64,000 nt of DNA from Chitinophagales bacterium. Lineage in GTDB: Bacteria; Bacteroidota; Bacteroidia; Chitinophagales; Chitinophagaceae. Position 1 is the first letter of the stretch. Each line of letters begins with the position of its first letter. The position numbers and the translations under genes are program-made. Below are positions 10,239 to 12,904 of the stretch, in pieces. The stretch is taken from contig JAATFV010000096.1 of the NCBI GenBank assembly GCA_015655015.1, forward strand, positions 1-64,000, read 5' to 3'. The notes below the pieces were generated by a model. The model did no database searches. It was given only the letters and a program-made list of their open reading frames with translations, and had not been told where the DNA came from.

Positions 10239-11663
10239 TTAAAATAAATCCCTCAATAAAACAAAACTATCGACATATTGTGCCGAATGCTCGTTCTGCT
10301 TCACTCCATATACAGTGACCATAGTGATGAAAATGGTCTTATTGGTTTTAGTAGCGCTTCGGTATGCCAGCACTTTATGCTGCAATTCCTTAGCATATTT
10401 AGCAGTGATTTCGTAGGGTACATTGGCAAATTTCATTTCACAAAGATTAATGCACCTGTCGGCGCGATCTATAACGAGATCTATCTGCGCACCTGCCTCT
10501 TTATTATACCAGGCCGACTGTTCGGAGTAAATGCTTCCTATTTGTAATGCTTGTTTTATTTTGTGTACATGTTTAAGACAGATATTTTCAAAGGCATAGC
10601 CACTCCAGGCCTTCCAGCTGTTCCCGCTGCTTATAAGCGCCCATGCGCCTTTCTCATGTGACTTCGATTTTTCAATGAACTTTAAATAAAAAAGAGAGTA
10701 CTCATCCGATAATCTATATATGGCATCCTTTACTTTTTTGTTCAAAGGAGCATAGGAAGTTATAAAGCCGCTTTCTTCCAGCTCTGTCAGAACACTGCTA
10801 AGATAACCCCCGCTTTTTAATCTGGCTGTTTTGACCAGTTCATTACGGGTAAGGCCATTCTGGCGCAAACTCAATGTTCTTATGATGGAAATATGTATTT
10901 CCGAACCGTCATACAAAGACTGATACAATTTTTCAAACTCCTGCCGGAGAGGGGCCTTTTCAGAAAAACAGATATTGTCAATATTTTGTATGGCGCTTTT
11001 GCCGGATCTCACTTCATCCAAATAATGAGGCACCCCACCCATTACCATATACAGCTGAACTATCTGGTACTGATCCAGCTTAATATTTTTTAATTTAAAG
11101 AAAGCCTGCGTTTCAGCCAGCGTAAATGGCAGCAATCTTATCTGTCTTGTTATCCTGTTATGAAGTCCCCCCTTGTTGTACACTATTTTATTGATCATCC
11201 AGGATGCCGCCGATCCGCAAATAACGACTATTATATCTTTCCGTTTGGTACACCATGAATTCCAGAAATAATCAAAGGCGCCTAAAAATCCGGAATGCAT
11301 CGTATCGAGCCAGGGCAGCTCGTCAAAAAAGATCACCTTCTTTTTTCTGGTGCTGAGAGTTTCGACATATCGGCCAAGTATCGAAAATGCTTCCGGCCAG
11401 TTGGCAGGAGTGGCAGGGCGGATAGGTGTTCTCCAATATTTTCCCAGCGCATCCGCAAAGTTAAAAAGTTGTATTTCGGAACTGGTTTTTTGGCTGCCTG
11501 ACAACTCGAAACATATATGTTTTTCATACACCGTTCTTATCAGAAAAGTCTTACCGACTCTCCGGCGGCCATATATTGCAATAAGTTCAGCTTTGGGAGA
11601 AGCCAATGCATCTTGCATGATTGCAATTTCGTCTTCCCTCCCTGCTATTGCCTCCAATGCCAT
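10239..11663 (-). CDS. AAA ATPase (archaeal-ATPase/DUF234 type) with C-terminal PD-(D/E)XK-like domain
   Basis: A 474-residue protein. Walker A GRRRVGKT is at 32-39 and Walker B IFFDELP near 111-117. A winged-helix-like segment lies around 262-330. The C-terminal part carries E359, then QIDLVID with D395 and CEMKFA with E409/K411, the spacing of a PD-(D/E)XK nuclease-type core. Proteins of this family are common in archaea and Bacteroidota, often in several copies, and their role is not settled. The gene is visibly more AT-rich than its neighbours and shares no pathway with them, which suggests acquisition. Its promoter side carries the palindrome array at 11691-11832. Confidence 0.85.
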   Translation of the reverse strand: MALEAIAGREDEIAIMQDALASPKAELIAIYGRRRVGKTFLIRTVYEKHICFELSGSQKTSSEIQLFNFADALGKYWRTPIRPATPANWPEAFSILGRYVETLSTRKKKVIFFDELPWLDTMHSGFLGAFDYFWNSWCTKRKDIIVVICGSAASWMINKIVYNKGGLHNRITRQIRLLPFTLAETQAFFKLKNIKLDQYQIVQLYMVMGGVPHYLDEVRSGKSAIQNIDNICFSEKAPLRQEFEKLYQSLYDGSEIHISIIRTLSLRQNGLTRNELVKTARLKSGGYLSSVLTELEESGFITSYAPLNKKVKDAIYRLSDEYSLFYLKFIEKSKSHEKGAWALISSGNSWKAWSGYAFENICLKHVHKIKQALQIGSIYSEQSAWYNKEAGAQIDLVIDRADRCINLCEMKFANVPYEITAKYAKELQHKVLAYRSATKTNKTIFITMVTVYGVKQNEHSAQYVDSFVLLRDLF

Positions 11664-11690: not shown

Positions 11691-11832
11691 ACGCCAAAAG
11701 TACCATCTTTACCATAGATTTGGCGTATCTTAAATTCTCACCTACGCCAAAAGTACCATTTTTCACCCACATTTGGCGTATCTCAAATCCTCACTTACGC
11801 CAAAAGTGGCATTTTCAACCCACATTTGGCGT
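11691..11832. repeat. Three 36-bp palindromic units at a 53-bp period
   Basis: Units at 11691-11726, 11744-11779 and 11797-11832 each begin with ACGCCAAAAGT and end with TTTGGCGT, giving perfect 8-bp inverted ends around a 20-base centre. Starts are exactly 53 bp apart, about five helical turns, so all units face the same side of the DNA. The linkers are related (TATCTTAAATTCTCACCT and variants). The array fills the spacer between the end of metX and the ATPase start codon, whose first base is 28 bases away. Confidence 0.85.
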
Positions 11833-11887: not shown

Positions 11888-12904
11888 CTAAAAGCGGCTC
11901 ATCCACGCTCTCAGGTGAGTGGCGATCTTCCCCCCCTCCACCATAAAGCCATCATGGCCATAAACAGAATCGATCTCTATCAGCGTAGCGTCCGGCAGGT
12001 TCCGGGCCATATGGCGCTGTTCCTCCAGCGGACAGAGAATATCGCTCCCAATCCCCATGATCAGCGTTTTTTGCGTGATCGCCTGTAACACCCCATCGAT
12101 CCCCCCCGCACGCCCCCGGGCCAGCTGATGACTATCCATCGCCTTGGTTAACAGCCAGTAACAATAGGCGTTAAACCGGCTTATCAGCTTATCTCCCTGG
12201 TAATTTATATAAGAGCTGGCCTTAAAATGATCCAGCTTCTCCGGATCGGGGTCCGTCTGTTTGGCCACCATAATCCCATAATTCCGGTAGGTAAGGATGC
12301 CGATAGCCCTTGCAGCCTTCAGCCCCTTTCGGCCGGCCTCCGGCGAGGCCTCCTGCCAGGTCCCGTCGGCCTCGATGGCCAGTCGCTGCGCCGTATGGAC
12401 GGCGATCCCCCAGGCGCTCTCCGAAGGCGAGGTGGCGATCAGGAACAGCTTTTCAATTCTTTCGCTCTCCATGACGGCCCACTCCAACGCCTGGTAGCCC
12501 CCCATGCTCCCCCCCATCAGAAGATGGATCTTTTCGATGCCCAGGTGCTCCCGGAGCAAAATATGGGCCCGTACCATGTCCCGGATAGTGATCATGGGGA
12601 AATGACTGTAATAAGGCTGCCCCGTCCCGGGATCCGTGCTCAGAGGCCCCGTACTGCCATAACAAGAGCCTAAAATATTGGCACAGACAATGAAATATTT
12701 ATCGGGGTCGATCCCCTCCTTTGCGCCTATCACACCCGACCACCAATGCCCGGCATCGGAATTTGCCGTAAGCGCATGGCAGACCCATACCGTATTGCTC
12801 CGGTCCGCATTGAGCCGGCCATAGGTATGGTACGCGATCGTAATACCGGCCAGGGATTGCCCGTTTTCCAGGTTAAAAGGCTGCTCATAATTATAATACT
12901 TCAT
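11888..12904 (-). CDS. metX: Homoserine O-acetyltransferase
   Basis: An alpha/beta-hydrolase that transfers an acetyl group from acetyl-CoA to homoserine in methionine synthesis. The nucleophile elbow GGSMGG puts the catalytic serine at about residue 133; the acid is in GSDILCP (about 288) and the histidine in YGHDG (about 317). The HALTAN and GSCYGSTGP motifs are those of MetX rather than plain esterases. The 338-residue length is normal. The ATG at 12904 is chosen over an in-frame TTG two codons upstream. It is divergent from the OsmC gene and close to the sulfhydrylase at 13538, making a small methionine locus. Confidence 0.92.
   Translation of the reverse strand: MKYYNYEQPFNLENGQSLAGITIAYHTYGRLNADRSNTVWVCHALTANSDAGHWWSGVIGAKEGIDPDKYFIVCANILGSCYGSTGPLSTDPGTGQPYYSHFPMITIRDMVRAHILLREHLGIEKIHLLMGGSMGGYQALEWAVMESERIEKLFLIATSPSESAWGIAVHTAQRLAIEADGTWQEASPEAGRKGLKAARAIGILTYRNYGIMVAKQTDPDPEKLDHFKASSYINYQGDKLISRFNAYCYWLLTKAMDSHQLARGRAGGIDGVLQAITQKTLIMGIGSDILCPLEEQRHMARNLPDATLIEIDSVYGHDGFMVEGGKIATHLRAWMSRF

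Follow-up and report, generated by a model that had tools for sequence, protein, structure and literature searches.

What is an array of long palindromes doing directly in front of a gene for a predicted ATPase-nuclease, and which protein reads it? In the window (the whole stretch of 64,000 nucleotides analysed here), the pattern ACGCCAAA-N20-TTTGGCGT has three exact matches, at 11691-11726, 11744-11779 and 11797-11832, which follow one another at a period of exactly 53 and 53 bp, and 100 dinucleotide shuffles of the window yielded none. This confirms the three palindromes and the 53-bp period of the original prediction. Its description of them as 36-bp palindromes stands for the outer arms and fails for the full length, as the inner 20 bp are not palindromic. 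We therefore treat the array as six alternating half-sites, whose GC cores, counted on the sequence, lie 30, 23, 30, 23 and 30 bp apart. The array lies within the interval that separates the start codon of a minus-strand gene (10239-11663, ATG at 11663) from the neighbouring ORF, whose end is at 11888, and 27 bases stand between the ATG and the nearest palindrome. The features referred to below are as follows.

10239..11663, minus strand: gene for a protein of 474 residues with ATPase_2 (PF01637), winged helix and DUF234 (PF03008) (Pfam, PADLOC, AlphaFold2)
10242..10628, minus strand: DUF234 region, residues 346-474 (Pfam, conservation, model)
10710..10904, minus strand: winged helix-turn-helix, residues 254-318 (AlphaFold2 model)
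10728..10730, minus strand: codon of Lys312 in the wing, which co-varies with half-site position 9
10773..10814, minus strand: start and body of the recognition helix, residues 284-297 (co-variation with the half-site)
11691..11726, no strand: palindrome 1 (proximal), two inward-facing half-sites with GC cores 30 bp apart
11695..11702, minus strand: TACTTTTG, a putative promoter element fitting TAnnTTTG, in that half-site of palindrome 1 which is nearer the gene (sequence)
11744..11779, no strand: palindrome 2 (middle), exact pattern match
11748..11755, minus strand: second TACTTTTG, inside palindrome 2 (sequence)
11797..11832, no strand: palindrome 3 (distal), exact pattern match

The gene encodes a predicted ATPase-nuclease

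The window protein is a full-length match to the PADLOC phage-defence candidate PDC-S27 (PDLC04984, E 5.5e-198, residues 5-474), with which it shares its domains, and both PF01637 and PF03008 score above the Pfam cut-off. The AlphaFold2 model (pLDDT 90.7, pTM 0.88) arranges the protein as ATPase, winged helix (residues 254-318) and C-terminal domain, the winged helix being composed of helices 254-265, 273-280 and 286-297 and strands 301-304 and 315-318. Across 40 sequences the ATPase motifs (G32 R33 R34 R35 G37 K38 and D114 E115) are invariant, as are E359, E409 and K411 of the C-terminal region, which is PD-(D/E)XK-like and in which D395 is nearly invariant. Judged by its sequence, the protein is a predicted nuclease and a defence candidate. 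PDC-S27 has been counted 3503 times in Archaea and 4562 times in Bacteria, and validation is pending for most such PADLOC candidates (PMC12988326).

The best solved structure that Foldseek returned for the model was a Pyrococcus Walker-type ATPase, followed by Orc/Cdc6, clamp-loader and NB-ARC proteins; sequence-based matches were 2fna, 2qen and TnsC. Two of the Foldseek neighbours, Orc1/Cdc6 on origin DNA (2qby) and the Walker-type ATPase 2qen, show 15% and 18% identity to the model, with TM-scores by query length of 0.32 and 0.52. Like the window protein, Orc1/Cdc6 and 2qen combine an AAA-type ATPase with a winged helix. We know of no C-terminal nuclease in 2qby or 2qen, and nothing here suggests a replication role for the window protein.

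Paired sites accompany the gene across the family

We collected the upstream DNA of relatives at 28 loci of named genomes (one of them without upstream DNA) and at further loci, comprising members in the window's phylum and class as well as viral, phage and plasmid members. Most relatives carry inverted repeats just 5' of the start codon, with arms that differ from member to member; exceptions include L043 and L045, by the inverted-repeat score, and several viral members. At most 180 bp upstream, an inverted-repeat score of at least 12 was reached by 33 of 45 family genes versus 2 of 53 neighbouring ORFs, and a score of at least 9 by 43 of 45 versus 10 of 53. A scan with free spacing found at least 10 of 12 complementary bases in 97 of 128 loci (these being plain, unweighted counts that include some near-duplicates) versus 6 of 128 shuffles. 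With the spacing between cores preset to 28-31 bp, such a pair was present in 94 of the 128 loci, the window's gene included (5/384 shuffles); a family that never has such neighbours, originally named as a refuting outcome, is thus not what was observed. The looser threshold of at least 8 of 12 was reached in 118 loci (75/384 shuffles), with the pair absent in 10 of 128, and control spacings of 18-21, 38-41 and 48-51 bp gave 11, 4 and 2 of 128 loci at 10 of 12 or better. The 128-locus count omits L035 (no upstream DNA), L109, L111, L112 and L153 (truncated), L119 (near-identical to L121), L001-L003 and L006-L008 (pattern places and fragments), L053-L082 (the sister family PDC-S01), L083-L088 (places from a PF01637 search) and L089-L100 (places matching the pattern with 3 mismatches).

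Our first motif model collapsed to a symmetric GC core, and the asymmetric half-site was therefore built in a second step, with the spacing preset to 28-31 bp. Because of this preset, the claim about spacing rests on the free scan and the control at other spacings, and partly on the count of adjacent half-sites. In the free scan, 64 of the 97 pairs have 29 or 30 bp between their cores. The same two distances occur in 155 of 158 cases of inward-facing adjacent half-sites up to 70 bp apart, a count for which one pair per locus had been chosen beforehand with 28-31 bp allowed; outward neighbouring half-sites are looser (22-25 bp in 47/79). Read inward, the common half-site is TATAnTTnGCCAAAA(C/G)T, and the window array fits the family geometry. 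The helical phase proposed originally for the array holds only loosely, since what the family conserves is the distance of 29-30 bp within a pair and not the 53-bp period.

Half-site bases co-vary with the winged helix

We computed co-variation between 13 site positions and 465 protein columns in 116 proteins, weighted to an effective number of 95; among the 118 loci, L028 and L110 were left out of the protein analyses as their proteins are short. The four top pairs all involve residues in the recognition helix or wing, namely 284 with position 7 (z 10.8), 312 with position 9 (9.1), and 287 with positions 4 (6.8) and 3 (5.9). They are followed by 122 with position 0 (5.8), 312 with position 11 (5.8), 284 with position 8 (4.6) and 290 with position 4 (4.5). 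Of the top 30 pairs, the winged-helix region (100 columns) accounts for 13, the ATPase (228 columns) for 9 and the nuclease region (137 columns) for 8, so that the list is not clean. Along the recognition helix, residues 284, 287 and 290 follow one another at intervals and go with positions 7/8, 3/4 and 4 of the half-site, respectively; 312 lies in the wing. The fifth-ranked pair, 122 with position 0, joins an ATPase residue outside the winged helix to the outer end of the half-site, and its co-variation may reflect ancestry or a second contact.

Several of these associations can be read as residue-base pairs. Counted in loci, with half weight per arm, Ser284 goes with C7 in 34/34 and Thr284 with C7 in 18/20, Asn284 with T7 in 19/19 and Asp284 with G8 in 17.5/21; Lys312 accompanies A9 in 50/52 and Arg312 T9 in 17.5/22, while Arg290 is found with G4 in 27.5/35 and Thr287 with A4 in 18/21. 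We also counted supported independent pairs on a quickly made tree from which the winged-helix columns had been removed. The change went in the same direction in 5.6 of 7 pairs for Ser/Thr284-C7, 6.6 of 7 for Asn284-T7, 5.7 of 7 for Asp284-G8 (0.2 opposite), 4.3 of 5 for Arg312-T9, 6.8 of 13 for Arg290-G4 (6.2 without a difference), 6.8 of 8 for Thr287-A4 and 1 of 2 for Asp287-C4, and in the opposite direction in at most 0.2 per draw. Median p values for the seven traits were 0.03, 0.016, 0.06, 0.125, 0.016, 0.016 and 1.

In leave-one-out prediction, with training restricted to proteins less than 60% identical, residue 284 predicted position 7 in 176 of 210 half-sites (114 by the majority rule) and residue 312 predicted position 9 in 190 of 206 (majority 161), the two largest gains among all columns with more than 100 predictions. 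Gains were also obtained for position 4 from residue 290 (116/210, majority 83) and from residue 287 (101/196, majority 82), and for position 8 from residue 284 (183/210, majority 154). Residue 312 gave little gain for position 11 (128/206, majority 126), and residue 287 none for position 3 (109/196, majority 113). Site distance correlates with the distance between nuclease regions (partial Mantel r 0.204, 0/500) and with that between helix-turn-helix regions (r 0.128, 1/500); as the former correlation is the higher, part of the signal is ancestry or something else. The original proposal of a binding site for the encoded protein is nevertheless supported by the conserved geometry across the family and by the co-variation of the sites with the protein's own recognition helix and wing. 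From these sequence comparisons, we consider it very probable that the encoded protein reads the palindrome sites.

The sites stay beside their own genes

In the window's genome (8.1 Mb, 97% complete), the pattern was found nowhere else at up to 2 mismatches, and allowing 3 mismatches added 12 further places, fewer than the 27 of a reversed-pattern control. A search of 395 genomes of the class, with N19-21 allowed in the pattern, located it at 8 places. Six of these are beside PDC-S27 genes: three belong to the window, two immediately precede other PDC-S27 genes and one immediately follows such a gene. The remaining two lie inside unrelated coding sequence, and the reversed-pattern control gave none among the matches listed for the 395 genomes. 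The search of this and related genomes proposed originally has thus returned places mostly beside family genes, rather than palindromes evenly present in genomes lacking the gene, the outcome named in advance as adverse. In a second genome (3.1 Mb), the site of one paralogue was found at only two places at up to 3 mismatches, and these flank its own gene. A viral contig carrying the window's palindrome (L189) was set aside as a chance match, as the palindrome lies inside a long coding sequence; we saw no PDC-S27-like ORF in the first 4 kb of the contig.

In 14 genomes with at least two usable paralogues, the predicted fit was better to a protein's own site than to the paralogue's in 22 of 24 pairs (the exceptions being L144/L188 and L170/L181); training for this test excluded both loci of a pair and kept their close relatives in. 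The compared pairs have different half-sites, including L004 and L005 of the window's genome. L005 (G000:C50:20435-21862) is a second intact PDC-S27 gene in that genome, 49% identical and with different half-sites. The same genome holds PDC-S27 fragments at G000:C208:966-1495 and C256:857-1237, two of three pieces having internal stops, which are apparently decayed copies.

The sites overlap candidate promoter elements

TAnnTTTG is the consensus of the Bacteroidota -7 box. Among 88 loci taken as Bacteroidota, the window's phylum (the name was inferred from named relatives, e.g., L009), the motif occurs in the right half-site in 39 versus 3 in the mirrored left half, and within the last 75 bases it was found in 67 loci on the gene strand versus 9 on the other. 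The complete -33/-7 arrangement was matched in 23 of the 88 only, and by eye we saw no good -33 box for the window's gene. In 14 Bacillota loci, TAnnTTTG occurs 0 times in the right half and once in the mirror half; there the best -35/-10-like pair, scored without a chance control, lies beside or across half-sites. Judged by consensus promoters, a half-site sits between the -35 and -10 hexamers in L024 and L036. By consensus match, then, the sites overlap putative promoter elements, and the use of one site geometry on two promoter grammars favours a DNA operator.

Some loci carry copies downstream

A cognate half-site lies at most 250 bp after the stop codon in 26 of 118 loci (3 of the 118 had less than 250 bp of downstream DNA), and 16 of the 26 are full pairs with the upstream spacing. 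The density of half-sites is 1.42 per kb downstream versus 0.10 per kb in genes and far flanks, and reaches 11.25 per kb upstream, in the DNA from which the half-sites had been derived. L141 and L027 have a downstream copy of the spacer, too, in the same orientation. No downstream copy follows the window's gene. Such copies suggest a loop or a cassette boundary, for which the homology edges described below give mixed evidence. In two genomes with no gene match at that place, G652 and G229 (L201 and L199), one half-site-like sequence stands at the place of the relatives' downstream palindrome; it may be a scar, a target or part of a terminator.

A probable private operator and its alternatives

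The array is probably the private operator of a self-repressing ATPase-nuclease defence candidate. We base this reading on the site, its geometry, its presence across the family, the promoter overlap by consensus and the co-variation, all computed here. Under it, the three palindromes would be the cognate operator of gene 10239-11663, and the winged helix of the protein itself would bind each half-site. An inward-facing pair, its cores 29-30 bp apart, would be occupied by two subunits, and additional pairs would let more subunits assemble into a larger oligomer. With the pair positioned at or next to the promoter, binding would repress the gene and keep the predicted nuclease at a low level. 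The site would change in step with a few winged-helix residues, so that family members, same-cell paralogues included, would have largely private sites. In genes that have a cognate pair shortly past the stop codon as well, the protein may connect the two gene ends in a loop.

The downstream sites speak against the operator reading, as simple repression does not need them. In a second reading, which we consider unlikely, the palindromes form a private address tag by which the ATPase-nuclease holds both ends of its gene; loss or duplication of the held state, through an invader with a matching site, replication or excision of the gene, would release or direct the nuclease. Diversified, mutually exclusive tags would then serve rival mobile or defence cassettes as a code for self and non-self. 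In a third reading, the palindromes are the ends of a mobile cassette, which the protein recognises on both sides and helps to excise or insert, with a secondary role as operator. Besides the 26 loci with downstream half-sites and their 16 full pairs, this is consistent with L045 and L046, which are 89% identical from -95/-93 to +83, near the outer ends of the array and the downstream palindrome, and with the finding of no other shared stretch above 60 bp between L045 and the G048 locus with its flanks. However, L042 shares its upstream flank with L045 and its downstream flank with L046, which means that +83 does not mark the fixed end of an element. A first search for empty sites found no clean one, and a second found one (G402 versus G479), relative to which there is an insertion of about 2 kb, but its edges do not coincide with the palindromes. 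The gene-less sites of G229 and G652 are not clean, the downstream half-site is absent in 92 of 118 loci by the 250-bp test, and the Pfam result for the window's protein includes no transposase domain. Overall, we judge the mobile cassette to be quite unlikely.

The arrays might also act as RNA, with transcribed hairpins that regulate translation or serve as the antitoxin RNA of a type III-like toxin-antitoxin pair, and both the strong predicted folding of the array (z -5.9) and the position of the repeats directly 5' of the gene fit this. It is nonetheless very improbable, given the half-site between the consensus promoter hexamers of L024 and L036, a spacing nearly fixed across phyla and site bases that co-vary with a winged helix; G-T mismatches are in no significant excess over A-C mismatches (43 versus 32, p 0.25), and the sole Rfam match around the gene falls outside the array (E 0.013, 14.4 bits versus a cut-off of 70). 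Short palindromes are common as operators, and the sites could belong to a different, host-encoded regulator that happens to control the PDC-S27 gene. We see little chance of this, since the sites accompany the gene across phyla, differ between compared paralogues, turned up nowhere else in the two genomes searched and co-vary with the protein's own helix. REP elements are present as many dispersed copies and go with RAYT transposases. Palindromic repeat units beside one gene do recall REP or CRISPR arrays, and with REP/RAYT pairs the locus shares palindromes adjoining the gene for a nucleic-acid enzyme. Here, however, the palindromes stay at the gene, the enzyme fold is different, and the Pfam result for the adjacent gene contains no Y1 (HUH) transposase domain. 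The sites are not dispersed (two genomes; 8 places in 395 genomes), for which reason we reject REP-like spreading; the original suggestion of copies spread by the protein is not supported, the site lying only beside its gene in the window's genome and in one other. We reject a CRISPR array by anatomy, as the 53-bp units can be aligned in full, at 72-83% identity with the reference unit, and leave no unique spacers; the chance that the array is REP-like or CRISPR-like is practically nil.

Relation to known regulators and defence systems

Among known systems, BrxR-type WYL repressors of defence islands are likewise defence-linked proteins that bind an inverted repeat at their own promoter, and inverted repeats were reported upstream of 193 of 347 BrxR homologues (PMC9122601). 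BrxR is a dedicated regulator, whereas here the predicted ATPase-nuclease itself would regulate, through pairs that are 29-30 bp from core to core and often repeated. The RptR repressor also acts on repeats in a defence promoter that are bound by the locus's own regulator; it is a separate small repressor with a 6-bp palindrome, TAGCTA, described as highly conserved, in contrast to the private sites of PDC-S27 (PMC12255303). The available portion of the PDC-S27 survey does not mention upstream sites (PMC12988326), and in the open-licence literature, preprints aside, we found no paper describing them; the palindromes, their geometry and a partial recognition code come from the present analysis. 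As a defence candidate, PDC-S27 is abundant and uncharacterised. The family-wide DNA site provides it with a concrete predicted ligand, and the fixed geometry together with a partly readable code allows a guess about its function to be put to binding and reporter tests. The family further offers a natural set of many distinct winged-helix/operator pairs, and the downstream copies raise the question of whether the genes are held as loops or move as units.

Sister family and phage relatives

The sister family PDC-S01 (L053-L082) has 8 matches in the window's genome. An inverted-repeat score of at least 12 within 300 bp was found in 7 of 29 of its genes (L055 was left out for its short upstream DNA); two of the seven repeats lie more than 200 bp from the gene, and the geometry is mostly other. 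In some PDC-S01 genes one inverted repeat stands near the start, again mostly of other geometry. A search for viral relatives with a Lachnospiraceae query found none. In Wolbachia phage WO (MN180249.1; L118, also L101 and L102), a PDC-S27 relative adjoins head-tail genes, and two repeated units upstream of L118 have CCGCGG cores 25 bp apart, off the usual 29-30 bp. The viral contig IMGVR_UViG_3300021319_000137 carries two PDC-S27 genes (L106 and L107), each with different upstream repeats.
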